From [Ruminococcus] torques ATCC 27756 (lineage in GTDB: Bacteria > Bacillota > Clostridia > Lachnospirales > Lachnospiraceae): a stretch of DNA of 64,000 nt. Shown piece after piece: positions 11,164 through 50,761 of this stretch (the stretch's first letter is position 1; each line of letters begins with the position of its first letter). The notes beneath the pieces are model-generated. The model was not told where the DNA came from. It saw only the letters and a list, made by a program, of their open reading frames with translations, and did not search any database. The position numbers were made by a program, and so were the translations under genes. The DNA is taken from NCBI RefSeq assembly GCF_000153925.1, contig NZ_DS264356.1, positions 64,713-128,712 of the forward strand. Reading direction: 5' to 3'.

Positions 11164-12183
11164 TCACCGTCTCAGTTCAATATAAGACGGCAAACTCCTG
11201 ATTTCTAAAACGGAACAATCAGAAGCATCCAAGACGGAAATTCCCGCCCGGTCAAACGCTCCGTCCGCAATTTCTGTCACATGTGAAGGAACTTTATAAT
11301 TTCCCGTTCTTGCCGGAGGAAATGCCAAAAGACACGTTCCGTCTTTTGAAAATAAAACTCCGTCCTCTGTATAATATCCTGCGGAGGTCTCCATTTCAAT
11401 CCATCCAAGTGAAGTCAAATCTGTAAACGCACGTTCTTCAATCTCTGATATATTAGCAGGAATATAGATTTCTGAAATAATATCTTTACAGGAAGCGAAT
11501 GCTCCTGCCGCAATTCCCCTACATCCTTCTGAAGGAAGTATGAGATATCCGTCTTCCGAAATAACCGACAGATCAGAAATCCCGCAAATCATTCCTGACG
11601 CGTCTGTAACAAATCCGCCGCCTATTACTGTTTTATCTCCTACACCGCCTTCTTCTAAAGCCGGATCATCCGATATATTTTCATCGATTACCGGAATGTC
11701 TGACAATTCTCCGCTGATCGGCGGATCATTTGGCAGAATCGTCTCAATGATCGGAGCATCCGGTACGGTTTCTTCTCCAGGCAAAATGTTCGATATAGTT
11801 TCTTCAGCCATCAAAGCATCCGATATCGCATCTTCAACCGGTAAAACAACTGCCGCGCTGTTTCCCGTATTCAAATCTTCCGAGCGCTCCGATATAACCG
11901 CAGGCACAGTGAAAAGATCAGCTGAAACATCTGCCGAAATCTGAATCTCGGTTACCGAAATCATAAAAGAACCTGTTGTTCCTACTCCCGCCGCATATTC
12001 GGCGACAGCTCTTCCTGCCATATCTTTCAGCCGAACACTTCCGAAATTTATCGTCTCCATTCCCTGCCCCATCATACCGACAGTCAAAACGGCTGCCATA
12101 AGAAAAACGAAAAACAGTTTTCTTATTCTGTCATACACTGCCCTTAAATATCCTGTCTCATAAAACACACCACAAAATTCCAT
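11164..12183 (-). CDS. secreted or membrane-anchored LRR_5 (BspA-like) protein
   Basis: 339 residues. A hydrophobic segment at about 22-40 (KLFFVFLMAAVLTVGMMG) looks like an uncleaved signal or anchor. Residues about 95-180 are a low-complexity acidic, proline-rich stretch with degenerate 10-14-residue units of the type EETISNILPG. The C-terminal 150 residues are leucine-rich repeats of the BspA type, with landmarks GIAAGAFASCKDI, VTEIADGAF and IEERAFTDL. BspA-like proteins are usually surface adhesins. This one is short and ends in the middle of a repeat, without an anchor at the C-terminus. Function unknown. Confidence 0.65.
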   Translation of the reverse strand: MEFCGVFYETGYLRAVYDRIRKLFFVFLMAAVLTVGMMGQGMETINFGSVRLKDMAGRAVAEYAAGVGTTGSFMISVTEIQISADVSADLFTVPAVISERSEDLNTGNSAAVVLPVEDAISDALMAEETISNILPGEETVPDAPIIETILPNDPPISGELSDIPVIDENISDDPALEEGGVGDKTVIGGGFVTDASGMICGISDLSVISEDGYLILPSEGCRGIAAGAFASCKDIISEIYIPANISEIEERAFTDLTSLGWIEMETSAGYYTEDGVLFSKDGTCLLAFPPARTGNYKVPSHVTEIADGAFDRAGISVLDASDCSVLEIRSLPSYIELRR

Positions 12184-17254: not shown

Positions 17255-18022
17255 TTATGCATGACTTCTTCTATGACTTCGTTTCCACTTTTCCATGATT
17301 CCGGGTTCCGGTTCTACAGACACCTCTTGGTTGATCTTATCTACTTCCCTGCGCATCTGGGCGTTTATTTCCATATATTCTTCGCTTTTTGTAATCAAAA
17401 TATGGTATTCTTCAAGCGACATATATTTGTACGACGCATAAAGATACGGCTTGATCAACGTCTTATCCCCGCAGATCTGATATGCACAATCATACATTTT
17501 CGCCGACTCTTGATAGAGGAACAAACGACCGTATGCCGCTCCGAGACTTGCATAAATCTTTCCGTAAAACTTCTCATCTACAGTCTCATCTTTTTCCCCG
17601 TTTAAAATAGCCTGATATACAAGAATCGCCTCTTCCACTTCCCCGCTTTCAAGAAGATTGTCGCCTTTAAATTTCTGCCGTTCAATATCTTTTTGATTTT
17701 TCAAATGTTCCAAAACATTCTGAATACGAATCATCTCCGGCTCACGATACAAACGAGACGATTTCAAAATAGTTAAAACAAACTTTTCAACCGAACCGTG
17801 CAGACGAAGAACGTCTCTTAACTCTGATGCAAGCGCCTTCATCTCCAGTTCCTCGTCAAGCCAGTCGCAAAGCTGCCCGTTCATAATCGTATAATCGATC
17901 AAATATAAATTATTACACAGATAGTAGCACAATTCTTCTATTGTAAAAATACGGCAATGGATGCGCGTAATCTCATACGGATGTGCCGCATGTCTGTCAT
18001 GACAAAGAATTAAATTTCCCAT
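17255..18022 (-). CDS. TPR-like protein, third gene of the DUF5717/DUF5716 operon
   Basis: 255 residues, no signal peptide or membrane segment. The N-terminal 60 residues (ITRIHCRIFTIEELCYYLCN...) are Cys/Tyr-rich and not recognised. A predicted helical middle is followed by TPR-like helices at about 120-215, with landmarks KGDNLLESGEVEEAILVYQA and GKIYASLGAAYGRLFLYQES. The very basic C-terminus ends KWKRSHRRSHA. The ATG at 18022 lies 5 bases after an AGGAGG site and inside the end of the Hsp70-fold gene (26-base overlap), so the two proteins are made together. Likely a partner or adaptor of that protein; function unknown. Confidence 0.7.
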   Translation of the reverse strand: MGNLILCHDRHAAHPYEITRIHCRIFTIEELCYYLCNNLYLIDYTIMNGQLCDWLDEELEMKALASELRDVLRLHGSVEKFVLTILKSSRLYREPEMIRIQNVLEHLKNQKDIERQKFKGDNLLESGEVEEAILVYQAILNGEKDETVDEKFYGKIYASLGAAYGRLFLYQESAKMYDCAYQICGDKTLIKPYLYASYKYMSLEEYHILITKSEEYMEINAQMRREVDKINQEVSVEPEPGIMEKWKRSHRRSHA

Positions 18023-19280
18023 CATTGCCTCCTAAATGTATCGTCTTCTCCGCATGGAAGTCTGTCGCCGGGAAGAAATCTCCAAATCCGGCATCCCTTA
18101 CGGAAATTCTGCATGTTTTTTCATCAAGAAACAGTGTCTCAAGCTGTAAACGCATGGAATACTCCGCCCTTTTCGGAAATCCGTCAAGAGACAGTGTTTC
18201 CGTTCTTACATTTCCCTGAACAAGAGACTCAATCCGAAGCTCGATGTCTTCTACGTCTTCCATGAGCACTTCCCACTGATTATTCGACTCATACCAGTGG
18301 TTCCCCCATGAAACGATCGGATACCACATCTCCTGGCCTCCAACCCGCATATTGACCGTAATCTGATCCGTCAGTTTATCTTCTGACAGATATACCGGAT
18401 TTTCAATATGCATATACAACTTTCTATACGCTGTATAACAAGCGCCCTTACTGTAGAGATTATTACCGATAAATGCTCGCCGCCCGTTGCACAGCACTCG
18501 CAAAGATTTCGGATACCAGTCGTTTTCAAAACCTTCTCCTGTCAAAAATACAGAGGAAACAATCCGTTTGTCAAATACGCTCTCTATAAATTTGCTGAAC
18601 ATTGCATCCGCTTCTTTTGCCTTATCTTCATTCAAGACAGGATATACCATCGCAAGTTCCTTCATGTGAGCGCTTGCCACTTCATCTACTGTAACAAACG
18701 TCGTTTTTCCGCCTCCCAGCCCCGGCCGAAGCCTCCTAAGCATATACGCTTTGATCTCATTTCTGTCACAGCAAAACAGCGCTGCGTCATACTGCCACAA
18801 TTCCTTCGGCTGATAAAACAGGTAATTGCAAAAACTCTCCTTGTAATCCTGGATAAAAATATTACGTTTATCAATATTCATCCGTACGGCGATTCCTCTG
18901 AGCATCTGCGCCATTTCTTCCGAAAGAGACGGAACTGTAAAAACAATACCGTCGATCTCCGGAAATGACTGAAGCGACATCTGAATAAATTGAGATAAAA
19001 GCCACACTGCGTCGTATGTTTCTTCTCCAAACTCGATCTTATCCCCAGCAAGACTTTTGCTTAGAAGTCTCGTTGCGGTAAATCCGTCTTTGATCGTAAC
19101 AAGTCTTTTCGCTTCTTTTCCATACGCCCACGTGTCTCGCAGTTTTCCTATGATAAGCGGAATCTGATAATTGTCCGTATCCACTTCCAGCGTATCCGGC
19201 TCCAAGTCTTTTTCGTTATAAAAACTGATCTGACATGTTTTTTCATTTATCTCATATCCGATGATACTTCCCTGTCCCAT
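17997..19280 (-). CDS. Hsp70/actin-fold protein with degenerate nucleotide site (DUF5716-like)
   Basis: 427 residues. Residues 1-290 align by eye with the DnaK nucleotide-binding domain: phosphate-1 strand GSIIGYEINEKTCQISFYN at the start, WAYGKEAKR (51-59) like DnaK VGQPAKR, and GIVFTVPSLSEEMAQMLRGI (111-130) like the DnaK VITVPAYF segment followed by its helix. The adenosine-motif region is VFLTGEGFENDW (244-255). The phosphate-2 loop, usually DLGGGT, is replaced by ALFCCDRNEIKAYML (167-181), so ATP hydrolysis is doubtful. The C-terminal 130 residues are predicted beta-rich, in the place of a substrate domain. I associate it with DUF5716. It is the middle gene of a three-gene operon, with an AGGAGG site before the ATG. 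Confidence 0.75.
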   Translation of the reverse strand: MGQGSIIGYEINEKTCQISFYNEKDLEPDTLEVDTDNYQIPLIIGKLRDTWAYGKEAKRLVTIKDGFTATRLLSKSLAGDKIEFGEETYDAVWLLSQFIQMSLQSFPEIDGIVFTVPSLSEEMAQMLRGIAVRMNIDKRNIFIQDYKESFCNYLFYQPKELWQYDAALFCCDRNEIKAYMLRRLRPGLGGGKTTFVTVDEVASAHMKELAMVYPVLNEDKAKEADAMFSKFIESVFDKRIVSSVFLTGEGFENDWYPKSLRVLCNGRRAFIGNNLYSKGACYTAYRKLYMHIENPVYLSEDKLTDQITVNMRVGGQEMWYPIVSWGNHWYESNNQWEVLMEDVEDIELRIESLVQGNVRTETLSLDGFPKRAEYSMRLQLETLFLDEKTCRISVRDAGFGDFFPATDFHAEKTIHLGGNDGKFNSLS

Positions 19281-19307
19281 GAAAAAACAACCTCCTATTG
19301 TTTAATC

Positions 19308-22300
19308 TTACGCCTGTTCTTTTGTAAAAATCTGCGCTGCAGCCGCATCTTCTCTTGCATATGCCTGAATTTTTTTCTTGCGCTCACTTTCGTTTTTCTC
19401 GATCAGGATATCATTCAGTCTTCCATAGCGCCCCGGTTCTCCCTGAACAGTTTCCCGCACACAAAGTTCCTTATCACTTCTGTAAGAGTTTCCGTCGATC
19501 GTCTCTTTAAAATAATATTTTAACTTTTCATTTGCAAAAAGAACAAACTTTTTCACATAAATATTTTCATACATCGGAGTAAGCACTTCCGTCGAATAAT
19601 CGGACGATTCTTCTCCTCCTTTTTGCAGGCTGTAATAAAGCATTACCCTGCTTCCCTTCTGACCTTTATACTCGATCAGTGTTTTATCCCAAAGCTGCAG
19701 TTCGATCAGCCAGTCTTTTTCATATGAAAGAAAGAACGGAAAATAAATCTGCTTTCCACACAATTCCTGAAGGAATTTCTTTAACGTCTTTCTTGTCTGC
19801 GGACTGTACTCTCTCGTCGAATAGTATTTTAATACCGCTACTTTGCATATATCGATCGTATCCTCGCCCTTTTCATATTCACGGCAGATGATATCGATCA
19901 CACTCCTGCTGATTTTTCTTTCTTCCACCACATATTCTCTCGACATATACACAAGATACGCCTGCTGAAGCCTGAAATATGCACCTTCCGCATAATACTG
20001 CTCAAACACCTGCGCTTCCTGAAATAATTCTTCCGAAAAGAGCATCTGTGTCAGGATCCTCTCTGCCAGCTTATGCGTATGTACTTCATAATCCCGCGCC
20101 TCTCTCCAAAGCATCTTCATATCAGATGTCGCGCCGCAGTAATAGCTTGCCAAATACGTCAGGATCACCTTGTCATATTGACCTTTTTTAAACAATTCAA
20201 AGCAGACATATGTAAGAAAATCATCATTCTCATAATTATTCTCTCTGATCGTTTTGCTGCAAAGTCCCAAAAGTTCATCTTCTTCGTAATTTTCAACTCC
20301 GTTTTCTCTGACGATCTCTGTCGTCAGTTCCTGAACTTCTTCTTCCTCCCGCGTTCTTCTCAGGCCGTTAATATATTTCCTGCACATATCCATATAGCGA
20401 AGCTCATAAAAAAGTCTCTGACTCTCATATGGGATAGAATCTGTATAATGCCTTCCGTCTTTTGACTCCCACACAAGCCGATCGGTTTTCGCATACAAGA
20501 ATACACGCGCTCCGTTTTCCGTATACGGTGATTTCTGAGTAATCGTGCCGTCATCTGCAATAACATGAATAAATTTCATATTCGGCACTTTCGTCGTAAT
20601 CCGGTATGCATGACATACATCATAAAGCGCTTTTACCCTTTCAGGATTCATAGATGCCTCTACTACAAACCGTTTATAAATGATACGAAGCTGTTCGTCA
20701 ACATTTCTCCGGTCAAGCTGATTCCATGCAAACGCTTCCATCTCGTCTCTGTAATGAGCGTAAATCTCGCTGCTTTCATCTTCATATGTGATCAAGTTTG
20801 AATATAAAAATGCGCATTTATGGTAATCCAATGAATTTCCGTGCATAAAATACAAATATACCGATCTCGGAAGCGCTTTGTGAAAATCCGCCGGAACAAC
20901 CGAAGCCATATAATATTCATAAAGCTGAGCAATCTTAAGCTCTGCTTCCACCGCTTTTTCATACCACTGAAAATAACAGCTTTCCACACAGTTTCCTTTG
21001 ATCAGAAGAGTACAGATCGCCGTCAGTATCATCGATTCCTTATACATCTTATAAGAACCGACAAGAACCGCATATAACTGTTTGTCAAAAACTTTCATCT
21101 GACTTGCAAGATTTGCAGTGTAAAGCGCCAGTTCTCTTGTCATCAGTTTATGTTTGACTGCAAACAGAAGAACCCGAACTTCAAACATTCCGAGCTTTTT
21201 CAGAGAAGAACTCTTTTCCCTGTAACATTTAAACGCCTGTAAATAGAACCAGACGCTATGCGACTTTTCATCATAAAACTGTTTTTCCAAAGCCCGAAGA
21301 CGTTCACTGTATATTTTATACTCCGAATCCACTTCCACAAGCATACACAAAATCTTCCAACTATCCGGATGCTTCATAAATGACTTGGAAAGCTCTTCCG
21401 CAACCTTTCGCTGCCCGATCGTGTCATTTGACAAAAGCGTTGTCAAATACAAATAATATGAACTAAGTTCCACATCCTTACCGATGGCAAAGCGATTATA
21501 ATTATATGATTCGAGAAGCCATTTCGCCTCTTCCAAACGTTTTCCGATCAGACAGATATGTGCATGCGCAAGAAGATAGAATTCATTTCTGTCATCAACT
21601 TCCCTCAGATGGCTGATCCGACGGATTGCTTCCTCGACCCATTCGTTCAGTTCCAGTTTTCCACTTTCATATTTTAAATAGTTTTTAACAATTCCCGCAA
21701 ACTCTCTGTCGTTTGCACGATAATCCTCATCTCTGCTTATATCTTTTTCTACGACAACCTCATAGGTAAGAGTCTCGTACGGAGATTCTAATATGATCCT
21801 GCCGAAATTACTTCCCGGATGAAGTGCTTCCACATTCAGAAAATATTCCAGCCGGTATGAATTTCCGATAAACTCTTCCGTCGTTACACGGGTATGTTCA
21901 ACAGAGAGGAATTCCCCTTCTGTATGTACGTCGATTTCTAAATATCCCCACGTATTTTTTCTGATAGTAAACGTCTCTTTCCGCGCCTCTGAAAGCGACA
22001 TAAACGCCCGGCTTTCCTCCTCAAGTGTCAGGAATATCTTCTCTTTTTGCTTACATCCTACGAGAAATTCTTCCAAAGCCTGCTGATCCAGTTCCCATTT
22101 CCGCATATTTTCATAAAGCGCCTGGATCCGCTTATCTTCGTATTTCAGTATTTCGTAAAAATCTCTGGAGCGAAACAGCTTTACTGCCTCAGCCGCATCC
22201 CGAAAAGACAGCTTCTTAAAATCGTCAAGACTTTGTATCTTCCCATAGCTCGTCATAACATACGGTTTCTCGATAATCGCGGTAAATGCGACATCATACT

Positions 22301-22616
22301 CGCCGCCGTTGCAAACGATCGTAAACTTCCCATGTTCGACATGCCCCGGCATCAACCCGCTGCCGTCATATGTATAATATATATTGACAGGATTCCCGTC
22401 GAAACCTTGTTCGTCACACTGCACACGATAAGAAGAGGGATAGACAAGACCTCTGATCGTTCCTTCCCCCTGATTTTTCAATGAAAAACTTCCTCTGTAT
22501 TTTTCCCCTTCTCCGACTCTCATTACAATATGTGTTTCCGGAAATATAATTTCCGGCTGCGGAATATGAAAGTCGCCTTTGGCAAATCGTTTGATCTTAT
22601 TCTTCAAATCTGTCAC
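19308..22616 (-). CDS. large beta-sandwich/alpha-solenoid protein (DUF5717-like), first gene of the operon
   Basis: 1102 residues with no signal peptide, so probably cytosolic. Two beta-sandwich modules can be seen at about 20-115 (GSFSLKNQGEGTIRGLVYPS) and about 210-300 (SFGRIILESPYETLTYEVVV type). These look like the Ig-like beta domains that accompany some bacterial Hsp70-fold proteins. From about 310 to 1000 the chain is a long helical repeat region rich in Tyr, Leu and Glu, TPR-like. A beta-rich tail follows. I associate it with DUF5717. The start is uncertain: GTG at 22616, or TTG at 22607, which has AGGTG at better spacing. It is the largest partner of the Hsp70-fold and TPR-like proteins; function unknown. 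Confidence 0.75.
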   Translation of the reverse strand: MTDLKNKIKRFAKGDFHIPQPEIIFPETHIVMRVGEGEKYRGSFSLKNQGEGTIRGLVYPSSYRVQCDEQGFDGNPVNIYYTYDGSGLMPGHVEHGKFTIVCNGGEYDVAFTAIIEKPYVMTSYGKIQSLDDFKKLSFRDAAEAVKLFRSRDFYEILKYEDKRIQALYENMRKWELDQQALEEFLVGCKQKEKIFLTLEEESRAFMSLSEARKETFTIRKNTWGYLEIDVHTEGEFLSVEHTRVTTEEFIGNSYRLEYFLNVEALHPGSNFGRIILESPYETLTYEVVVEKDISRDEDYRANDREFAGIVKNYLKYESGKLELNEWVEEAIRRISHLREVDDRNEFYLLAHAHICLIGKRLEEAKWLLESYNYNRFAIGKDVELSSYYLYLTTLLSNDTIGQRKVAEELSKSFMKHPDSWKILCMLVEVDSEYKIYSERLRALEKQFYDEKSHSVWFYLQAFKCYREKSSSLKKLGMFEVRVLLFAVKHKLMTRELALYTANLASQMKVFDKQLYAVLVGSYKMYKESMILTAICTLLIKGNCVESCYFQWYEKAVEAELKIAQLYEYYMASVVPADFHKALPRSVYLYFMHGNSLDYHKCAFLYSNLITYEDESSEIYAHYRDEMEAFAWNQLDRRNVDEQLRIIYKRFVVEASMNPERVKALYDVCHAYRITTKVPNMKFIHVIADDGTITQKSPYTENGARVFLYAKTDRLVWESKDGRHYTDSIPYESQRLFYELRYMDMCRKYINGLRRTREEEEVQELTTEIVRENGVENYEEDELLGLCSKTIRENNYENDDFLTYVCFELFKKGQYDKVILTYLASYYCGATSDMKMLWREARDYEVHTHKLAERILTQMLFSEELFQEAQVFEQYYAEGAYFRLQQAYLVYMSREYVVEERKISRSVIDIICREYEKGEDTIDICKVAVLKYYSTREYSPQTRKTLKKFLQELCGKQIYFPFFLSYEKDWLIELQLWDKTLIEYKGQKGSRVMLYYSLQKGGEESSDYSTEVLTPMYENIYVKKFVLFANEKLKYYFKETIDGNSYRSDKELCVRETVQGEPGRYGRLNDILIEKNESERKKKIQAYAREDAAAAQIFTKEQA

Positions 22617-22633
22617 CTACTCATCATTTTTGC

Positions 22634-22687
22634 AGCAGTCCGGGCATGAACGTATCGCGGACTGCTGTCTTTTGCCCTCGGACAAAA
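22634..22687 (-). promoter_or_regulatory. structured 5' leader of the DUF5717-like operon
   Basis: Two inverted repeats lie between the promoter and the start: CTTTTG with CAAAAG (about 22669-22687), and a perfect 9-bp AGCAGTCCG with CGGACTGCT (22634-22642 with 22658-22666). No T-run follows the second, so it is not a terminator; it sits about 20 bases before the ribosome site. Confidence 0.5.
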
Positions 22688-22701
22688 GTACGCTACTATG
22701 A

Positions 22702-22731
22702 ATTATAACATTGTTCTGTCTCTTCTTGCAA
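22702..22731 (-). promoter_or_regulatory. promoter of the DUF5717-like operon
   Basis: Minus-strand -35 TTGCAA (22726-22731) and perfect -10 TATAAT (22702-22707), 18-base spacer. It drives the three genes ending at 17255. Confidence 0.7.
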
Positions 22732-22750: not shown

Positions 22751-22784
22751 CAGAGATATTGTATACAAGTATACGATATCTCTG
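22751..22784. repeat. 34-base near-perfect palindrome upstream of the operon promoter
   Basis: Two 16-base arms (22751-22766 and 22769-22784) differ at one position and have a 2-base centre. It includes the 10-base palindrome TTGTATACAA, which resembles GntR-type operators. It lies 20 bases upstream of the -35 box and 31 bases after the GNAT gene stop. It may be an operator, a terminator, or both. Confidence 0.6.
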
Positions 22785-22815: not shown

Positions 22816-23265
22816 TTACTTCAAGGGAGCATCTTTGATCATCTGCGCATATTCCAAAGGCTTGTATCCAAGTTTTTTATACAGAGCTACGGCTCTTGTA
22901 TTATCTTCTTCCACTTCAAGCCTCATCCTTGTCACCGCCGAGCCTTTCACCTTATCAAGATATGCAAAAAATTCCCTTCCGATCCCTTTGGAACGAAACG
23001 CTTCCCGCACATACACTTCTTCAATCCACCAAACCATTCCTCCCGCTTCCTGAGAATAAGTTTTCGCGATCAGCCCGTATCCCGCCGCTTCGTTTTCACA
23101 TTCAAAAAGAAATATCTCGGCATAGACATCAGAGCGAAGCGCCTCATCTGCAGTCCGTTCAAAATAGGTGTCCGGAACCGGATGTAATACGGCATCCGAA
23201 TGATAAAACTCTCTCGCCATCTCCATATAAGTCTTTTTGTCTTCTGATCTCATTTTTCTTATCAT
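22816..23265 (-). CDS. GNAT family N-acetyltransferase
   Basis: 149-residue acetyl-CoA-dependent acetyltransferase. The acetyl-CoA loop is VREAFRSKGIGREFF (RxxGxG type) at about residue 88. The C-terminal motif NTRAVALYKKLGYKPLEY is typical of the fold. The acceptor is unknown. The ATG lies one base after the TAA of the transglutaminase gene, so it is translationally coupled as the last gene of the MoxR operon. Confidence 0.88.
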   Translation of the reverse strand: MIRKMRSEDKKTYMEMAREFYHSDAVLHPVPDTYFERTADEALRSDVYAEIFLFECENEAAGYGLIAKTYSQEAGGMVWWIEEVYVREAFRSKGIGREFFAYLDKVKGSAVTRMRLEVEEDNTRAVALYKKLGYKPLEYAQMIKDAPLK

Positions 23266-23266
23266 T

Positions 23267-25186
23267 TTACTTTCTCCTTTTCTTTTTCTTTTTCATAAAA
23301 CTTGCACCTTTTTCACAAAAAGGCGTTTCAATGCAATAAATATATTTTAGAAGCAGCCGCATTCCGGGATTCATCCGCCTTTTTGCCTCAGCATAAAACT
23401 TCCGATACAATTTATAGGATTCTTTCCATATTCTCCGGTCTTTTGTCGGATAATAAAACAAAATGCGCCGCACTTCTTCATAAAAACTATTCCACTCTTC
23501 TTCCGAAATCTGAGGATACTGTTTTTTCAGATGTTTCAACCAAACTTCCGAATAATCATCTGTATCCGAATGCCTGTTTCCGAAAATCTGCTTCTTTGGT
23601 TTTTCCGTCAGTCTTGCAACTTTAACTACATCGTCATACATTGTAAGAATACCGATTCCGCCCCGAGTCGTCCCAATCTTTCTCCTGTGACGTTTTCCTC
23701 TGACTACAGCCTGAATAAAAACGCCTCCAAACGCAGCCCCCGCCACAAAAACAACACACACAATCAACCGAAAAACCTGATTGCTTTTAAAACTGTTTTC
23801 TTTCTTTTGTTTTGCCGCATCCGCTCCCTGCATCTCGTTTCTTGAAGATGCCGGCGTATGTTCCATTGTGATCCACTCTCCTGTTTTCTCATCATATACT
23901 TCACACCATGCATGTCCCATTGTTCCGTCAACCTGCGCCTCATAAGTTCCGTTTTCTTTTTCTTTAAACGCAGAAGCCGGAACTACCAAACCTTCCACAT
24001 AAATCGACTGGTAGCCGCACATCCTGTAAAGTAAAGCTGCTGTTGTGGCAAAATGTACACAAAATCCCTTTTTATTTTCAAACAGAAAATACTCTGCAAA
24101 ATCCCATTTTGCAGGCGTTTTCCCAGGATTCGTATCATAAACTATATTCGACAAAGCTTCGTCAATCTGATTTTTCACAGCAGAAAACGAACTCTTATCC
24201 CATCCTTCGCACATTTTTTGCATACGGGTAAGTTCCGAAGGATACTGTAAAAATAGCTCCTCTTTTTCTTCTTCAAAATAATACTTTGAAGAATACACTA
24301 CCTCTTCTAGTTTTTCATTTGTCCACGCACTGTCCTCATAAGTCGTCCCCCACCTATCATAAAGGTATGTTTTCTTTTTCTCAAGCACAACACATGTAGA
24401 CACTTCCGAAGACGGCTTAAAAGAAGAAATAGCTTTGAGATCGTCCATTTTTCCGCCCGACGTCATATTGTCATTTTTTCCGTTTTGTTGTGTCGGATCA
24501 TTTTCCGGCCGGAAAGGATTTTTTTCTTCTATATCTTCTCTGTCATGCTTGCTTTCAGCATCTGTTTTTTCTTCATCTAACTTTTTGCCGTCTTTTTTAT
24601 TTTTTATTTTTTCAGCCAGTTCTTCTGCTTTTCCGATTACGTTCTCTCTGATTTTCTGTCTCGTTTCCTGATAAAATCCATTCTCGTCTACTCTGATCTG
24701 ATCGATCTGTTTTCCCGCAAAAACAGAAATTCCCGCAGCAATCCCAAAGACCGCCGAAATCAAAACAAGTGAACGAAAAACCTGTTTAGCTTTGCATCCT
24801 TCCATTGCACAGCACGTTCCATACAATACCGCGGCAAAAACCAACATCCACGACGCCCATGGCGGCGGAAATTTTCGCGCGCATGCAGCAGATATAAACG
24901 GTGCAAAAATAACCAAATAAGCAATTACGCGCAGCCTCCTTACTTTGAATGCCGCAATCAACAAAATAAATACCGCAAAACTCACGGCAATCTCTGCAAA
25001 AATGATTTCTTTTCGTCCTATTTGATTTGCCAGCGCTTCCAAATCAAATACAGATAAAAATGCATTCCGCCATAATAAGACTGCACAAACAGCACTAAGC
25101 GCTTTCACAAAATTTATTTCCGGATTTTTCTTTTCCACATCGGCATCCCCACTTTTATAAACGAAGAAACAACTCTTCTTTCCCAT
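23267..25186 (-). CDS. membrane transglutaminase-like protein (TgpA type)
   Basis: About 639 residues. Several hydrophobic helices lie in the first 150 residues, followed by a charged linker (Lys/Glu/Asp-rich, about 175-240) and an extracellular transglutaminase-core domain with GFCVHFATTAALLYRMCGY (catalytic Cys), TMGHAWCEVYDE (His) and WITMEHTPAS, where Glu stands in the place of the usual Asp. One more membrane helix (VFRLIVCVVFVAGAAFGGVF) precedes a cytosolic basic tail ending in KKKKKRRK. The start is uncertain: ATG 25210, ATG 25186 or GTG 25138; all have weak ribosome sites. It overlaps the DUF58 gene end. With MoxR and DUF58 it forms the widespread envelope-associated trio. Confidence 0.82.
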   Translation of the reverse strand: MGKKSCFFVYKSGDADVEKKNPEINFVKALSAVCAVLLWRNAFLSVFDLEALANQIGRKEIIFAEIAVSFAVFILLIAAFKVRRLRVIAYLVIFAPFISAACARKFPPPWASWMLVFAAVLYGTCCAMEGCKAKQVFRSLVLISAVFGIAAGISVFAGKQIDQIRVDENGFYQETRQKIRENVIGKAEELAEKIKNKKDGKKLDEEKTDAESKHDREDIEEKNPFRPENDPTQQNGKNDNMTSGGKMDDLKAISSFKPSSEVSTCVVLEKKKTYLYDRWGTTYEDSAWTNEKLEEVVYSSKYYFEEEKEELFLQYPSELTRMQKMCEGWDKSSFSAVKNQIDEALSNIVYDTNPGKTPAKWDFAEYFLFENKKGFCVHFATTAALLYRMCGYQSIYVEGLVVPASAFKEKENGTYEAQVDGTMGHAWCEVYDEKTGEWITMEHTPASSRNEMQGADAAKQKKENSFKSNQVFRLIVCVVFVAGAAFGGVFIQAVVRGKRHRRKIGTTRGGIGILTMYDDVVKVARLTEKPKKQIFGNRHSDTDDYSEVWLKHLKKQYPQISEEEWNSFYEEVRRILFYYPTKDRRIWKESYKLYRKFYAEAKRRMNPGMRLLLKYIYCIETPFCEKGASFMKKKKKRRK

Positions 25187-26207
25187 CTTTTTTAATCTGC
25201 CCCTGTCCATCGATCGTAACTATACTGCTAAACTCTGCCCCTTTAAAACGCTCCCTCATATAGGAATCTCTTTTCTCTGTATTTCCGCACGGCTTTATAT
25301 CGATCAATTCCCATACCATCTGACAGCAGCTTTCTTCATCTTTCACTTTCACAGTCACAATCTGTTCTGTATCCTCTTCATACCACGCAGCCAGATGAAT
25401 ACATTTTTCTTCAACAAGAGTGATCGATAATGATGCTGCTGTCTTTAGCATTTTAGAAAAACCGTTCGCAGTACATTCTTTTTCTCTGATGTCAAACCAG
25501 ATCAGTACGGCACATCCTAAAGGAAACGCCCTCTCTTTTGCTACAAGCTCTTCTTTCGCGGCAGTCAGTTTCCAATGAATATCTTTTAAAGAATCTTCTC
25601 TTCGATACTCTCTCACCTGATAAATTTCAGAAGGATCATCTCCCTTTTTCTCACAGGAATATTCTTCCGCATCTGTTTGAAATTCTCTCGTCTTTCTTGT
25701 GATCTCAACAGGCATCAGTTCAAATTCAGGCATGATCTTCACAAATACTGTTTCAGCCTCTCTTCTCCTGATATAAAAAATACAAAGGGGATCATAAATT
25801 CTTATTTCATTCAACGTAATTTCCATACTGCCACAAATATTCCCCGGCAGCTCATACCAAAATGTTCTGACATTTTCCGCCTGTATCACTCCCCGTATCC
25901 GCTTCTGTTTCTTTTTTTCTTCAATCTTGTTTCCCACAAGGATCACAGCTTCATACCGCATATTCCATGCGGATTGATTTTTTACGGTAATCCCGGCTTT
26001 TATCGTCTTTCCTTCTTCACCCATCGAAGGAATACGCGTCATATCTGTTCCGACTTTTCCTCGCTGGATCATCAAAAACCAAAATGATAAAAGCGGATAC
26101 ATTATAACAAATATAAGAAGTCCTGAGATTACAGTATCGTTATACATAAAAAATAAATATATCGTAAGTATAAGAACTGCCAGATATCCGATTATTCTTT
26201 TTACCAT
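25155..26207 (-). CDS. DUF58 domain-containing membrane protein
   Basis: 350 residues. Two membrane helices at the N-terminus (about 5-45: IIGYLAVLILTIYLFFMY, VISGLLIFVIMYPLLSFWFL) are followed by a beta domain and the DUF58 signature DDPSEIYQVREYRREDSLKDIHWKLTAA, where the EYRxGDxxrxIxWK pattern is clear. A vWA-like region (AVLIWFDIRE) follows. DUF58 proteins are encoded with MoxR ATPases across bacteria and are thought to take part in surface protein or complex assembly. The start is 11 bases after the MoxR stop, with GAGG upstream. Confidence 0.9.
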   Translation of the reverse strand: MVKRIIGYLAVLILTIYLFFMYNDTVISGLLIFVIMYPLLSFWFLMIQRGKVGTDMTRIPSMGEEGKTIKAGITVKNQSAWNMRYEAVILVGNKIEEKKKQKRIRGVIQAENVRTFWYELPGNICGSMEITLNEIRIYDPLCIFYIRRREAETVFVKIMPEFELMPVEITRKTREFQTDAEEYSCEKKGDDPSEIYQVREYRREDSLKDIHWKLTAAKEELVAKERAFPLGCAVLIWFDIREKECTANGFSKMLKTAASLSITLVEEKCIHLAAWYEEDTEQIVTVKVKDEESCCQMVWELIDIKPCGNTEKRDSYMRERFKGAEFSSIVTIDGQGQIKKDGKEELFLRL

Positions 26208-26217
26208 CTGTTCATCC

Positions 26218-27171
26218 TCAATATTTCTGTCTCATTGTCGGAGTCGGAACACTCTCCAGAACCCGCCGGATCAGTTCTTCTTTTTTTATATGGCCTACCT
26301 TCGCTTTCATATTCAGAATGATCCGATGCTCTGTGACACACGGAAATATTTCCTGTACATCGGAAGGAACGACATATTCCCGTCCATTCAGCCACGCACA
26401 TGCTTTCGCCATAGCTGTCAACGCGACAGTTCCGCGAGGACTTAAACCTAACTCTGTCCATTCATTTTCCCTTGTTGCTTTTGCAAGTTCCACAATATAA
26501 CCGAAAATCCGGTCATGTACAAAAACCTCCTTAACTTCTCTTTGCATTTCGATCAATTCCTCTGCATTGACAACCGGATCGATTCGTTCTCTCGTTTTTT
26601 CTATTGACTGTTCCCGTTTCAAAATCTCAATTTCCTCTTCTGCCGTCGGATAGCCCATACTCACACAGATCATAAAACGATCAAGCTGTGACTCCGGCAG
26701 AAGCTGAGTTCCGGCGGAACCTACCGGATTTTCAGTCGCGATCACAATAAACGGCTCTCCTGTCCTGTGAGTTTTTCCATCAACCGTTACCTGATGCTCT
26801 TCCATTACTTCCAAAAGCGCGGACTGCGTCTTTGGCGACGTTCTGTTTATCTCATCTGCCAAAAGAAGATTGCATATAGCTGCACCCGGCTGATACACAA
26901 ATGTCCCTGATGCTTTATCATATATCGTAAATCCACTCAGATCTGCCGGAAGTACGTCCGGCGTAAACTGCACCCGATTCACCTTAAGTCCCATTGCATG
27001 CGAGAACGAAAGCGCCAGCGTCGTCTTTCCCGTTCCCGGAATGTCTTCGATCAGAACATGACCTCCGGCAAGAATTGCTGTCATAACTTTTCTTAAAATA
27101 TCTGTTTTCCCAACGACTGATTTCTCCACTTCCCCTATAACTGACCGCGCTCGACATCTGTTTTCTTCCAT
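26218..27171 (-). CDS. MoxR-family AAA+ ATPase
   Basis: 317-residue chaperone-like ATPase. Walker A is IPGTGKTTLA, Walker B ICNLLLADEINRTSPKTQSALLE with the MoxR sensor region VIATENPVGSAGTQLLPESQLDRF, and the C-terminal lid begins LSPRGTVALTAMAKACAW. MoxR proteins remodel or mature partner complexes, usually the DUF58/vWA proteins encoded next to them. It is the first gene of a four-gene operon and has a good promoter (27242-27270). Confidence 0.94.
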   Translation of the reverse strand: MEENRCRARSVIGEVEKSVVGKTDILRKVMTAILAGGHVLIEDIPGTGKTTLALSFSHAMGLKVNRVQFTPDVLPADLSGFTIYDKASGTFVYQPGAAICNLLLADEINRTSPKTQSALLEVMEEHQVTVDGKTHRTGEPFIVIATENPVGSAGTQLLPESQLDRFMICVSMGYPTAEEEIEILKREQSIEKTRERIDPVVNAEELIEMQREVKEVFVHDRIFGYIVELAKATRENEWTELGLSPRGTVALTAMAKACAWLNGREYVVPSDVQEIFPCVTEHRIILNMKAKVGHIKKEELIRRVLESVPTPTMRQKY

Positions 27172-45169: not shown

Positions 45170-48100
45170 CTATGCTCTTTTTCTTCTTCTGAAAATAACA
45201 ACTGCGGAAGCTACCAGCATGAACGCCCAGAACATGATCGGTGTCTGATCGCCTGTCTGAACTGCCTGACCTTTCTGTGAATCCGGATTTTTATCCTCAT
45301 CTTCCTTAACGTCATCTTTTTTCACAAGCAGTTTCTCTGCATCTTTTAACGCTTTTAACATATCTTCAACGTCTTTTGCCGTCGCTTTCTTGTCTTCCAA
45401 TACCGCTTTTGCTTTTTCCAAAACGTCTTTATATGCTTTCACTGACGCATCCGTATATCCGCTTAAGTCTTTCTTTTCAGCCGCTTTGATCGCTTCTTTC
45501 AATGCTTCTAACTGCTCTTTGCTCGGCTTTTTGTCTTCTTCCTGCGGATTGTCTTTCTCTACGAGAAGCTTGTCTGCATCTTTTAATGTTTTCAGCATAT
45601 CTTCAACCTCTGTTGCTGTTGTTTCTTTATCTGACAACATTGTTTTTGCTTTTTCCACAACATCTTTATATGCTTCGACAGACGCATCCGTATATCCGCT
45701 TAAATCTTTCTTTTCAGCCGCTTTGATCGCTTTCTTTAATTCCTCTAACTTTTCTTTGCTCGGCTTCATTTCCAAATCAACGGCAGCTTTCTGCAGTTTA
45801 GCCAAAGCGTCGTCTACCTCTTTTTGTGCCGCCTTCTCATCTTTAAGAACTTCCTGCGCTTTATCATATGCCGCCTTAAAAGCATTCCATGTCGAAGGAG
45901 TATACTCTTCTTCTTTATCTGCGTATTTCTTTGCGAAATCTACATAACTCTGAAGCGCAGTCTTATCCACTTTATCCGGACTCGGTTTTGCAGTCAGTCC
46001 GCTGATCGCAGTTTCAAGATCCGTCTTCGCCTGATCTACTTCTGTCTGTGAAGCATCCGCGTTTTTAAGTACCGTTTCAGCCGCTGTCAGCGCTTGCGTA
46101 TACTTCGCTGCGGATTCTTCCGTATATCCCGAAAGATCCCCGTACGCTTTTTTCGCCTCATCAACCGAAGCCTGCAGTTTTGTGAAATCTGCACGTTTTA
46201 CAAGTCCGTTTACCGCTGTCTCAAGCGCTGTGCGAGCCGCCTCGATATCCGCATCAAGCGCATTTTCATTTTTCAAGACTTCATTTGCCGCATCCAATGC
46301 GCTCTTAAACGGCTGCCATGTGGACGGAGTATAGTCTTTTTCAGTCTTATCGCTCACTGCATCGACCAATACTTTCAGGCTTGTCGTGTCACCTATAAAG
46401 TCAAGCATATGTACGATTTCAAGCAATTCTGTGTACGCTTCGTCAACCTGCTCCTGTGACGCTTTTTCATTATCTTTCACCTGAACTGCTTTCGCAAGCG
46501 CTGCATCTAACGCTTTTTTCACTTCAGGAACGACATGTTCATATTCCGGTTTTTCTTTCGCGCTCTGTGCGTATCCGATCAAAAATTCAAGGAACTGCTT
46601 ATTTACCTGTTCCGGCTGCGGTTCTTCTTTTTTCGGAGCCATTATACGGATTTCTGCCGCAGATGCAAAGTTCTTTCCTGCCTGATCTGACAATGTTCTC
46701 ACTGCATATAATCTAACGTTTGTCGCCTCTGTCTGATCAAACTGAGCCCATTTCCATCCTGAATCATTTGTCCATGTTCCTGTCGCCACTTCATGATAAG
46801 ACTGTCCGTTATCATTGCTTACCTCAATACGGTATTCAACGATCACACCGTTCACCGCGCCGTTTCTTGGAAGTATACGCAGTCCGTTGACAGTCTTGCT
46901 CTCTCCCAGGGCAATATCGATCCACAGATTATTCTGGTCGTCGCCTTCATATTTACTGTGCCAAAGCGTTGACACGTCTTTATCCAGAACATATGATGCG
47001 GGTCCTTCTTTCCCTGTCTGCGGCTGCGCGCTTCCTGCCGTAGCAGTCATCCCTTCTGTCGGAAGGTCAAACTCATCATTTGCCGCCGGATTTTTTACAG
47101 AGTAGTTTTCTAAAATTTCTGCTCCGAGTGTTTTCAGATCCTGCGGTGTCGCAGTTGTCGGATACTCTTTATTGCTGCGTACCCATTCCCATTCCCACTC
47201 AAACCAGTCGATATTACTCTCATAATCCGTTCCCGAAAGCTCGTTTGTTCTTGCTGTGATCCAGCGCTGCCATCTTGCTTTATAGAAATCACCGATCAAG
47301 CCTGACCACTGACGGTTAGAGTAATCTTTCAGACCGCCTTTTTCCGCCTGATTTTTCGATCCCCATGTAGTAACGAGCGCTTTTGCATTGAACTCATACA
47401 GTTCTTTTGTAAAGTCATCCGCATTATTTGCAAGCGCTTTTGCCTGCTCTACCCATCTTCCGAGAAGGAAGTATTCGCTTGTTCCCGTTACTTTTTCCAT
47501 GTCTTCGATCACTGACATGAATTTTTCCGAATATGTTTTAAAGCTGTCCAGATCTTTTGCGCTGAACGCTGCAGACATACCTTTTTGATATTCCTGAGCG
47601 CTGTTGGAAAGTACCTGCTGCAAAACATTTGCCAGATCGTACTGATATCCTGCGCTGTCTTTCAGCTTATCATAATCAGCTAACAGAAGCGCTGCCGCTT
47701 CTTCAAGATCGCCTTTTTCATAGCTGATCACCGCGTTGCCCCATGTAGAAGCCGCCCCGATCGTAAGATTCGGTCTTGCATTTACAACTGACTCCGGCGC
47801 ACCCTGTCCAAGGCCGTTTAAGCTCGCCTTATATACTGTTTCTTTCAAAATATCCCATGCCTGATTTGCCGACTCACTCTCTGCTCCGTATCTTCTCGTC
47901 GCATAATCATCAAGCCATGTGTCAAGATCGATCACTTCCATCTTCTGTGACGCATCATCCTGCCAGATCGTCTCGAACAAGAAATCATACAATACCGGGT
48001 TATTTACACTCGCCTCAGGAGTGATTCCGATTCCCGCGATATATTTCGTCTCATTAAATACTTTCGGAATATTATTTGCAAGGTTGTCAAGATGTCCGTG

Positions 48101-50761
48101 CAGTCCGAGACGTCCTCCGAAGTTATTCAGCATACAGAACAGCCACGGAGTCTTGTCAAATTCTTCCTCGTCTCCATATGCTTCCGCGCCGGGACGTCCT
48201 TCATCATAATGCGGGTCTTTCTCTGCGTACAAGTCAAGAATCAGCGCATGATCTGTTCCCTTTTCCACTCTGTCAAGACCGTTTAACAATGCAGTTGTCG
48301 GATTACCCTGCCATGACTGGATGATCCAAACCGCATCTTTGTCTGCCGTGATCATTTCAGTTAATACTTTTTCCGAAATGTCGGACGCATTCATACCGCC
48401 TGTAATGCCGCCTTCGTGGAACGGGTCTGTCGCATAATAGTTGCTTACGTCTCCGTAAACTTCTTTCTGACACTGATAGAATTTCTTCGCATATTTTTCA
48501 AATGTAGAAGAAGTTGTCTTTAACATCGTCGGACGCTGGAAGGAACACCACTCGCCCTGCTCGATCACTTCTGCATTTTTGTCATAATCGTGAATATTTG
48601 TCGGAACCATTCCGCTGTAACCTTGCAGTACAGGCTGCATTCCGAGTTTTCTCATAATAAGCTGATTCTTTCTTGCCAGCTCTGTTCTCTCTTCAAACCA
48701 CGAGTCATGCACCGGGCCTCCGAAACCGGAAAGGTTCGCCATATATGCCCACGCATAATATGCAGGTCCTGCAATAAAGTCTTTAATATCTTCGTGAGAA
48801 TATCCAAGTTCTCCTAAAAATCTTCTCCATACTTCTTCCTGCGCTGTCGCGTCAAGAACGACGTTCACGCCGTTTAACGCCAGCCAGTCTAACTCGTCAC
48901 GCCATTCCTGCTCTCCCCAGAACGCCATAGAATAAGAAAGCGTACAGTAGTTATAAGAGTAGCGGACTTCCGCCTTCGTCTCTTTAAATACTTTTTCTGT
49001 CACAACAGGTTTATTTTCCGGCATATCTGCCTGATCTCCCACTTGTGAAAGATTTACCTGACAGAAATATTTCAGATAATGGTTCAGTCCTGTCGCAAGA
49101 GAAACACCGTCGTTTCCTTTGATTTTCACCTGATCTCCATCCATGGAAAGTTCAAAGTAATCATAACCGTTCTTTTTCGGATTCTCCGCAAGTTCAAGCT
49201 TAAACCAGTCTTTGTAAGCTTTTCCGAGTCTTCTTTCGATAATACCGTAAACTTCGTTTTTCGTATCATTTTCTGTAATCTCTACATTATATTCTGACTC
49301 TTCATATTTTACTGTATTGATCTCAGGTCTTTTCTGAACTTCTGACTTGCTCTCTTTTCCTGTCACACGGACTTCGTTCAGTACAGCCGCCGTAGACGCG
49401 GAATTATATTCCATATAAACGCGGACGATTCTCGCTTCTTTTCCTTCCGCCTGGTAAACTTCTCCCTTTTCAGCATCACAGGAATCTTTTGATGTCTTCT
49501 CTGCCAGTTTATCAAAATCTCTTCCGTCCATACTTGTATAGATCGTATACTGAGAATATCCATTCTCCGGTGTATATACTTCTACCGTATCAAGGTTATA
49601 ATTTTTCTCCAGATCAATATCTACATAAGACGGATAATATGCGCCGGTCCACTGTGTCTTTTTGCTTCCGTCCGTAATATTTTTCGCCGTATTTTTTCCA
49701 GACGGCGTATGTACCGGTTTCTTAAATGCGATACTGCCTGTATCCTGTACTTCGATCTCGCTTCCGTACACCTCAAACTCTGCCACTGCCGGCCATCCGT
49801 TCTGCGTTCCGCCCTGTGTCTTACAAGAATGCATAACAATCTTCACTTCTGAATACTGCGCGGCATTAAACTTATAAACCTGCGCATAATTATCTGTACG
49901 GTTTGCCTTCTGGTGATCTGCAATCTTCGTATAATCGCTGTCTCCTGCTTTCTTCGCCAGGATGCTGTACTCGAACGCGAAATCAACACTGTCCGTATCT
50001 CCCACATGCTCAAAAGCAATGCGGAACGCATCCATCGTTCTTGCCTCGTCAAAATTCAAAGCGATGTACTTCTCTGAAGTCTGCGCTTCATTGTGGAACT
50101 TATACAATGTTTTGTCGTTTCCGTCAACAAGGTTTGCTGATCCTTCAGATTGATTTTCGTTTCCGTCTGTTGTGATCTTCGCCTGATTTGCAATGTTATT
50201 GTAATCAGACACTTTTTCTTCCTGCTCTTCAAACACTTCCACTTCCTGAACCGACGGCCAGAACGCGCCCTGACTTCCATCAGAATTCTGCGGATCGGAA
50301 AGCGTTACATAAATATGCGTTGCCGACTTCGGCACGTCCGCTGTAAACTCTTCTTTTGAATCTACCGTCATTCTCTTGCTTCCGAAATCAATCAAATCCG
50401 TTGTAATGCCGTTCTGTGCATACTGAACTGTCACAAGCGCCGTTCTTCCTGTACTGTTATCCCCGTCTTCGCCAAGTTCTACAGCCACTTTTGAAATACT
50501 GCGTCCTTTATCCAACTGGATCACAGCCGTTGCAGGCCACGTTCCTTGTGTCTGCCAGCTTGTTTTCGGATCACCGTCATTGATGTTTCCGATTACATAA
50601 CTTCCATTCTCACCGTTCTGCGTACTTACCGTACCGTTAACGGCAACATTGACAAGCGTTGTCTTCGCCTCTGCTTTTTGCGGAGCTATGCCCGCAAATG
50701 CGCTAATAACCATGCAGGAAGCAAGAATCGATGATACGATCTTTCTAATCTTCTTTTGCAT
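45170..50761 (-). CDS. cell-surface GH89 alpha-N-acetylglucosaminidase with CBM32-like and FIVAR modules
   Basis: 1863 residues. A signal peptide (about 1-33, ending AEAKT) is followed by three F5/8C-CBM32-like modules (about 35-180, 185-340, 345-475) and the GH89/NAGLU catalytic part (about 480-1225). Proposed catalytic acids are Glu783 in YATDPFHEGG and Glu916 in GIGITPEAS. A fourth CBM32-like module (about 1240-1380) is followed by about six FIVAR modules (1390-1820). The last two are close copies with a 237-base period. The tail is a sorting-like VQTGD, hydrophobic helix and RRRKRA. It should release terminal alpha-GlcNAc from gastric-type mucin or similar glycans, at the wall. Single gene with its own regulated promoter and terminator. 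Confidence 0.93.
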   Translation of the reverse strand: MQKKIRKIVSSILASCMVISAFAGIAPQKAEAKTTLVNVAVNGTVSTQNGENGSYVIGNINDGDPKTSWQTQGTWPATAVIQLDKGRSISKVAVELGEDGDNSTGRTALVTVQYAQNGITTDLIDFGSKRMTVDSKEEFTADVPKSATHIYVTLSDPQNSDGSQGAFWPSVQEVEVFEEQEEKVSDYNNIANQAKITTDGNENQSEGSANLVDGNDKTLYKFHNEAQTSEKYIALNFDEARTMDAFRIAFEHVGDTDSVDFAFEYSILAKKAGDSDYTKIADHQKANRTDNYAQVYKFNAAQYSEVKIVMHSCKTQGGTQNGWPAVAEFEVYGSEIEVQDTGSIAFKKPVHTPSGKNTAKNITDGSKKTQWTGAYYPSYVDIDLEKNYNLDTVEVYTPENGYSQYTIYTSMDGRDFDKLAEKTSKDSCDAEKGEVYQAEGKEARIVRVYMEYNSASTAAVLNEVRVTGKESKSEVQKRPEINTVKYEESEYNVEITENDTKNEVYGIIERRLGKAYKDWFKLELAENPKKNGYDYFELSMDGDQVKIKGNDGVSLATGLNHYLKYFCQVNLSQVGDQADMPENKPVVTEKVFKETKAEVRYSYNYCTLSYSMAFWGEQEWRDELDWLALNGVNVVLDATAQEEVWRRFLGELGYSHEDIKDFIAGPAYYAWAYMANLSGFGGPVHDSWFEERTELARKNQLIMRKLGMQPVLQGYSGMVPTNIHDYDKNAEVIEQGEWCSFQRPTMLKTTSSTFEKYAKKFYQCQKEVYGDVSNYYATDPFHEGGITGGMNASDISEKVLTEMITADKDAVWIIQSWQGNPTTALLNGLDRVEKGTDHALILDLYAEKDPHYDEGRPGAEAYGDEEEFDKTPWLFCMLNNFGGRLGLHGHLDNLANNIPKVFNETKYIAGIGITPEASVNNPVLYDFLFETIWQDDASQKMEVIDLDTWLDDYATRRYGAESESANQAWDILKETVYKASLNGLGQGAPESVVNARPNLTIGAASTWGNAVISYEKGDLEEAAALLLADYDKLKDSAGYQYDLANVLQQVLSNSAQEYQKGMSAAFSAKDLDSFKTYSEKFMSVIEDMEKVTGTSEYFLLGRWVEQAKALANNADDFTKELYEFNAKALVTTWGSKNQAEKGGLKDYSNRQWSGLIGDFYKARWQRWITARTNELSGTDYESNIDWFEWEWEWVRSNKEYPTTATPQDLKTLGAEILENYSVKNPAANDEFDLPTEGMTATAGSAQPQTGKEGPASYVLDKDVSTLWHSKYEGDDQNNLWIDIALGESKTVNGLRILPRNGAVNGVIVEYRIEVSNDNGQSYHEVATGTWTNDSGWKWAQFDQTEATNVRLYAVRTLSDQAGKNFASAAEIRIMAPKKEEPQPEQVNKQFLEFLIGYAQSAKEKPEYEHVVPEVKKALDAALAKAVQVKDNEKASQEQVDEAYTELLEIVHMLDFIGDTTSLKVLVDAVSDKTEKDYTPSTWQPFKSALDAANEVLKNENALDADIEAARTALETAVNGLVKRADFTKLQASVDEAKKAYGDLSGYTEESAAKYTQALTAAETVLKNADASQTEVDQAKTDLETAISGLTAKPSPDKVDKTALQSYVDFAKKYADKEEEYTPSTWNAFKAAYDKAQEVLKDEKAAQKEVDDALAKLQKAAVDLEMKPSKEKLEELKKAIKAAEKKDLSGYTDASVEAYKDVVEKAKTMLSDKETTATEVEDMLKTLKDADKLLVEKDNPQEEDKKPSKEQLEALKEAIKAAEKKDLSGYTDASVKAYKDVLEKAKAVLEDKKATAKDVEDMLKALKDAEKLLVKKDDVKEDEDKNPDSQKGQAVQTGDQTPIMFWAFMLVASAVVIFRRRKRA
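45320..45775. repeat. tandem duplication of a FIVAR-coding unit
   Basis: Two copies with a 237-base (79-residue) period; for example GACGCATCCGTATATCCGCT occurs at 45444 and 45681. The encoded units share IKAAEKKDLSGYTDASV. A recent duplication at the surface-exposed end of the GH89 protein. Confidence 0.85.

Follow-up and report, generated by a model that had tools for sequence, protein, structure and literature searches.

A conserved three-gene operon of Lachnospiraceae encodes a divergent Hsp70 homologue and may be the remnant of a larger Hsp70 operon

The window analysed here, a 64,000-nucleotide stretch of the [Ruminococcus] torques ATCC 27756 genome, carries three closely spaced genes on the minus strand, and the open reading frames bear out the coordinates of the original prediction. 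The first gene, delineated from open reading frames, Pfam matches and predicted structure, encodes a DUF5717 protein (19308..22616, 1102 aa), the second a DUF5716 protein (17997..19280, 427 aa) and the third a TPR partner (17255..18025, 256 aa). The DUF5717 gene has an alternative TTG start at 22607, which yields a protein of 1099 aa and may be the true one, given that near-identical database copies mostly have this length. Genes 1 and 2 are separated by 27 bases, and genes 2 and 3, both preceded by AGGAGG ribosome sites, overlap by 26 or 29 bases according to the ATG used; the 255 residues and the 26-base overlap previously ascribed to gene 3 hold if translation begins at the second ATG, at 18022. 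Hydropathy indicated no transmembrane segments in any of the three proteins. By sequence, the closest named relatives of the locus belong mostly to Mediterraneibacter. In 75 of 80 relatives' loci the three genes are adjacent (tblastn), arguing that the linkage is not due to chance; in three of the exceptions (L164, L165 and L168) the DUF5717 alignment alone stops short, L171 runs out at the end of the locus and in L190 the TPR protein is unmatched. Likewise, 37 of 40 chosen Lachnospiraceae loci have the genes in order or fused, so that the conserved neighbourhood, proposed beforehand as a check, was indeed found.

The operon is preceded by a putative sigma-70 type promoter on the minus strand (22702..22731; TTGCAA-18-TATAAT with TG before the -10 element). 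The match by itself proves nothing, because the 19 promoter-like sites in 6.5 kb are close to the number found in shuffled sequence (mean 14.3, sd 4.0). It is the conservation that bears out this element of the original prediction: in an alignment of the window with the upstream regions of 67 relatives, mostly Mediterraneibacter, the letters TTGC, TATAAT and AGGTG are common to at least 90% of the rows, and a stretch AGTAGCG, 3' of the -10 element, to at least 60%. A separate promoter-like site lies ahead of the next gene (17187-17159). Upstream of the promoter is a near-perfect palindrome (22751..22784, minus strand) containing GTATAC-TT-GTATAC, the inner part of which is partly conserved in the relatives; it is possibly a candidate operator of some regulator or the terminator of the upstream gene. 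Just upstream on the same strand are a GNAT gene (22816-23265) and genes for MoxR AAA+, DUF58-like and transglutaminase proteins (23267-27171); among the 40 Lachnospiraceae loci, MoxR, DUF58 and transglutaminase labels occur near the operon only in L112. Elsewhere in the window, positions 45170-50761 encode a protein of 1863 aa, perhaps a surface glycan-degrading enzyme, in which NAGLU (alpha-N-acetylglucosaminidase) domains occur together with F5/8 type C (three) and FIVAR (four) stretches, and positions 11164-12183, adjoining a glutamyl-tRNA synthetase gene, a protein of 339 aa whose match to BspA-type leucine-rich repeats falls just short of the Pfam cut-off.

The DUF5717 protein matches PF18984 (DUF5717_N) over residues 5-750 (E 6e-213) and PF18983 (DUF5717) over residues 798-1097 (E 4e-102). 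In its predicted structure (pLDDT 85.6, pTM 0.47), two PapD/MSP-like beta sandwiches (approximately residues 22-117 and 195-293) are followed by an alpha solenoid (297-668), a beta module (670-734), a further solenoid stretch (739-972), another beta module (979-1053) and C-terminal helices. The beta modules and the long helical region expected from sequence are thus present in the model, but their number had been given as two, and the model contains two more. A fold search with the beta sandwiches returned mainly PapD/MSP/ASH types as the best rows, although the sandwiches may be of another Ig-like type.

The DUF5716 protein matches PF18980 (DUF5716_C) over the whole length of the model (residues 112-416, E 3e-103), and the names DUF5716 and DUF5717, given in the original prediction, were therefore right. 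DUF5716_C is the sole Pfam family matched at E<=1, and PF00012 does not match over the cut-off; by contrast, the homologue from locus L033, in another family of the order, scores 116 bits against PF18980 and also passes PF00012, at 53 bits. Evidence for the fold comes from the predicted structure of a fused DUF5716-TPR homologue, rather than of the window's own protein: residues 7-422 of this model superpose on residues 2-504 of DnaK, with an actin-like NBD followed colinearly by SBD-beta. The SBD-beta region could be aligned through the Lachnospiraceae DUF5716 family. The SBD-alpha lid is absent, as the 427-aa chain stops soon after SBD-beta; in the fused model, SBD-beta is over by approximately residue 420, and the helices from 460 onwards belong to the TPR part. 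A DnaK fold in order had been proposed for this protein, and structure prediction, named beforehand as the check on its actin/Hsp70 fold, together with the alignments, recovers it through the fused homologue.

The ATP-binding motifs present a different picture. The phosphate-1 (GxDxGTT) and phosphate-2 (DxGGG[TS]) motifs are found in none of the 67 DUF5716 proteins examined (45 Lachnospiraceae rows and 22 from other families), compared to 59 of 60 operon-encoded Hsp70s. Across the same set, the connect-1 Glu is kept in 0/45 Lachnospiraceae and 1/22 other-family proteins, the phosphate-2 Thr in 1/45 and 0/22, respectively, and the adenosine Ser in none of the 67; in the window's protein, the key ATP positions are occupied by E, N, K, C, R and Y. 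What is retained is the first Gly and the Asp of GxDxG in 21-22 of the 22 other-family proteins, and the Asp in 33 of the 45 Lachnospiraceae rows. By fold and descent the protein belongs to the Hsp70 superfamily, although the canonical ATPase motifs, a PF00012 match and the lid are lacking. Taken together, alignments and model show DUF5716 to be a divergent Hsp70 homologue in which the NBD fold and SBD-beta are predicted to persist, but the lid is missing, as are the phosphate-1, phosphate-2, connect-1 and adenosine motifs. Residual nucleotide binding is possible despite the loss of the classical motifs.

The TPR partner consists of a conserved N-terminal domain (PY..., EELCYY) and degenerate TPRs and has no Pfam match over the cut-off. 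Its assignment follows from a Lachnospiraceae profile that matches, over 201 columns (E 2e-32), a longer homologue in other families which is an unmistakable TPR protein. Among the 145 Lachnospiraceae genomes with DUF5716, five have open frames of 690-727 aa, and in all five a single frame encodes DUF5716 and, after it, the TPR protein; in a protein search, at least 65 clusters (P0121-P0185, 687-727 aa), 65 of the 120 matches listed of 190, are such fusions. One-frame fusion is strong evidence that the two proteins associate physically, and its frequency suggests that the TPR protein is a permanent partner of DUF5716; the contact itself is predicted from gene fusion and gene order. Overall, the analysis supports the original reading of the coupled genes as encoding an Hsp70-fold protein and its partners.

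The operon is a near-constant feature of Lachnospiraceae, a family prominent in the gut. With one genome sampled per genus, PF18980 was detected in 145 of 150 Lachnospiraceae genomes, 143 of which gave a single match. Within the genus it was present in 36 of 37 genomes, counting the window's own, and outside the family in 11 of 24. Three of the five misses retain DUF5717, the other two (G089 and G151) gave neither protein, and one genome (G080) has DUF5716 with DUF5717 not found. The lack of both proteins in G089 and G151 indicates that the core is dispensable in places, unless those assemblies miss genes. DUF5717 was found in 121 of 246 genomes sampled across the order, where all 33 own-family rows listed are positive and the 20 no-match rows shown include none from the family (105 more no-match rows are unlisted), and, over the cut-off, in 5 of 398 genomes of the phylum, all own-family.

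In other families of the order, the same three proteins are encoded within an eight-gene operon whose other products are three motif-intact Hsp70s, of which one carries vWA, and a coiled-coil protein with a GrpE domain at its C-terminal end. We typed 28 such loci in 27 genomes. In 16, a contiguous run HspA - GrpE coiled coil - DUF5716 - HspB - Hsp-vWA is preceded by DUF5717 and followed by the TPR gene, and L210 shows this arrangement too, except that a 412-aa protein without a Pfam match stands in for DUF5716 and a 308-aa unlabelled gene for the TPR gene. Four loci (L037, L041, L042 and L226) are partial, being cut by contig ends, the genes are dispersed in four more from one family (L039, L040, L221 and L222), and three (L043, L214 and L224) are reduced operons. 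L043 and L224, from one family, encode the two DUF5717 domains and DUF5716, either on their own or alongside HspA and a short GrpE coiled coil, forms that we read as intermediate stages or alternative outcomes in the reduction of the large operon. In L033, HspA, HspB and Hsp-vWA match PF00012 with 263, 215 and 309 bits, the last also matching VWA, and the coiled-coil protein matches GrpE at residues 480-627 (42.5 bits); in the seven L033 operon proteins scanned, neither a GTPase nor a J-domain was listed (for the TPR protein, among the best 25 of 26 families). The Hsp70-vWA fusions with intact ATP motifs, for instance L033:6787-8862 and L036:11518-13677, form one clade.

In a quick tree with long branches, HspA, HspB and Hsp-vWA each form one clade separate from the own-genome DnaK, and eight Lachnospiraceae DUF5716 rows (the window and 7 of the 45) join the DUF5716 of L032 (SH-aLRT 99). 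A divergent CobD/HisC-like aminotransferase gene is located upstream in both kinds of locus (26 loci, 24 divergent), which supports one ancestral locus. The GrpE coiled-coil profile found 11 of 13 other-family genomes, namely, nine already known, eight of which supplied profile rows and hence match by construction, plus G607 and G777, where the match lies on contigs other than that of DUF5717; it was not found in G740 and G651, nor in any of 53 Lachnospiraceae genomes, own included. In the window's own genome, PF00012 matches only DnaK and one 334-aa frame (53 bits). These absences suggest that the motor part was most likely lost in Lachnospiraceae, on grounds of parsimony. We infer that the large operon came first, as a dedicated Hsp70 machine of which Lachnospiraceae shed the ATP-driven part while keeping an ATP-free core almost universally; the direction from large to small follows from parsimony over genomes rather than from a rooted species tree, and the DUF5716 branches are long.

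As a whole, the observations are best explained by a locked, Ssz1-like Hsp70 core that is the remnant of the eight-gene Hsp70 machine (probability approximately 0.45). DUF5716 would act like yeast Ssz1, that is, as a locked Hsp70 within a permanent complex, its lid-less SBD-beta making fast, low-affinity contacts with clients. The TPR protein would hold DUF5716, and the DUF5717 rod would place it at the target, from which clients would be passed to an active Hsp70, formerly HspA, HspB or Hsp-vWA and now the cell's own DnaK. Ssz1 is described as handing clients to Ssb (PMC7083937).

The strongest competitor, though unlikely on balance, is a pure structural scaffold, in which the actin/Hsp70 fold would serve merely as a docking block and the complex, without clients, would organise an assembly at or near the membrane by way of a neighbouring coiled-coil/TM-hairpin protein, perhaps membrane-linked in some genera. 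FtsA, PilM and GspL provide precedents for such use of actin folds. The loss of ATP motifs in all 67 DUF5716 proteins and the large solenoid and beta modules of DUF5717 agree with a scaffold, as does a linked gene for a coiled-coil protein, mostly of approximately 400 aa and with one or two predicted transmembrane segments, which lies 3' of the operon in 19 loci, including five outside Lachnospiraceae, and could point to a membrane-bound structural role instead. Its profile matched 54 of 120 Lachnospiraceae genomes (one per genus), in 51 of them within 3 kb of DUF5716; of the remaining three matches, one is on another contig and two are weak. However, this membrane protein is absent from most sampled genera, with no match in the window's genome, the SBD-beta fold, needless for a pure scaffold, is kept in the modelled member and aligned through the family, and the motif-intact Hsp70s and GrpE domain of the large operon indicate a chaperone origin. 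Regarding the linked family itself (alignment A1; coiled-coil/TM/coiled-coil), one member is L093:11478-12701, and in L216 it shares a single frame with a sequence that, judged by eye, resembles glutamyl-tRNA synthetase.

It appears improbable that DUF5716 is a still active Hsp70 with altered motifs, served by the GrpE and J-proteins of DnaK: the intact fold and the retained GxDxG residues would fit, but the near-complete loss of the connect-1, phosphate-2 and adenosine residues and the substitutions in the window's protein speak against it. Slightly less probable still is a defence or conflict system akin to the HSP70-GrpE-FNIII/TPR theme of GAP1-N2 GTPase-centric systems, with which similar parts are shared (Kaur et al., 2020; PMC7159879): HSP70 and GrpE, another protein with an HSP70 domain, TPR with beta-sandwich repeats, and vWA. 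Such a role is unlikely because the core is near-universal, nearly always as a single match per genome and unlike patchy defence genes, because GAP1-N2 is absent from the operon (it occurs in 1 of 15 genomes holding the system or part of it, on a different contig) and because the three window proteins match no PADLOC model at E<=0.1; moreover, the seven L033 operon proteins scanned include no GTPase, and a variable effector was not seen. An accidental neighbourhood of three functionally unrelated genes, for which only the incomplete sets in G080, G089 and G151 could be adduced, is practically negated by the conserved adjacency and order, the fused clusters and the colinear larger operon.

Returning to the locked Hsp70 core, a bacterial Hsp70 that has lost the ATP motifs and kept its partners and operon would allow the function of the Hsp70 fold to be examined in the absence of an ATP cycle, with the eight-gene relatives as the matched ATP-driven form. 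Hsp110 is among the proteins used to study this question. Eukaryotic Ssz1 is another (PMC7083937). If the genes prove essential, they would point to a core process of common gut bacteria that has gone unrecognised. More broadly, the order probably carries an undescribed dedicated chaperone machine in one operon, which combines a PapD/MSP-like solenoid rod, a TPR protein and a GrpE-domain coiled coil with four Hsp70s, three of them motif-intact (one vWA-fused) and one degenerate. Of this machine, Lachnospiraceae would have lost the motor and kept an ATP-independent Hsp70 core in almost every sampled genus, probably in a basic role.

Literature searches returned nothing on DUF5717, the term DUF5716 only in an irrelevant context and no description of the eight-gene machine. 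Pfam holds the same families, DUF5716_C, DUF5717_N and DUF5717, as being of unknown function; the present analysis relates them to Hsp70 and to the eight-gene operon. The eukaryotic Ssz1-Zuo1 complex RAC shares the lid-less SBD-beta, but its partner is a J-protein, on whose J-domain it depends, rather than a TPR protein and a solenoid/beta rod; Ssz1 still binds ATP through its NBD, whereas DUF5716 has lost more motifs, and RAC is ribosome-associated; the present system is bacterial. DUF5716 probably originated separately from Ssz1, since it adjoins and matches the HspB-type Hsp70s. The DnaK-GrpE system likewise has an Hsp70 fold, a GrpE domain and a substrate beta domain, but here HspA, HspB and Hsp-vWA form their own clades, GrpE is fused to a long coiled coil, one Hsp70 to vWA, DnaJ is unmatched in the L033 operon and DUF5716 lacks ATP motifs. 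The closest published system is the HSP70-GrpE theme of GAP1-N2 neighbourhoods, which combine HSP70 and GrpE, a second HSP70-domain protein in a subset, and beta-sandwich repeats linked with TPR or DnaJ (Kaur et al., 2020; PMC7159879). Here, HSP70 and GrpE genes occur together in the large operon found outside Lachnospiraceae, a pair that is missing from the window, DUF5717 with its beta sandwiches and solenoid may or may not correspond to the FNIII-repeat protein, and three motif-intact Hsp70s accompany a degenerate one that is near-universal in Lachnospiraceae; the parts are thus shared, but the set is not.
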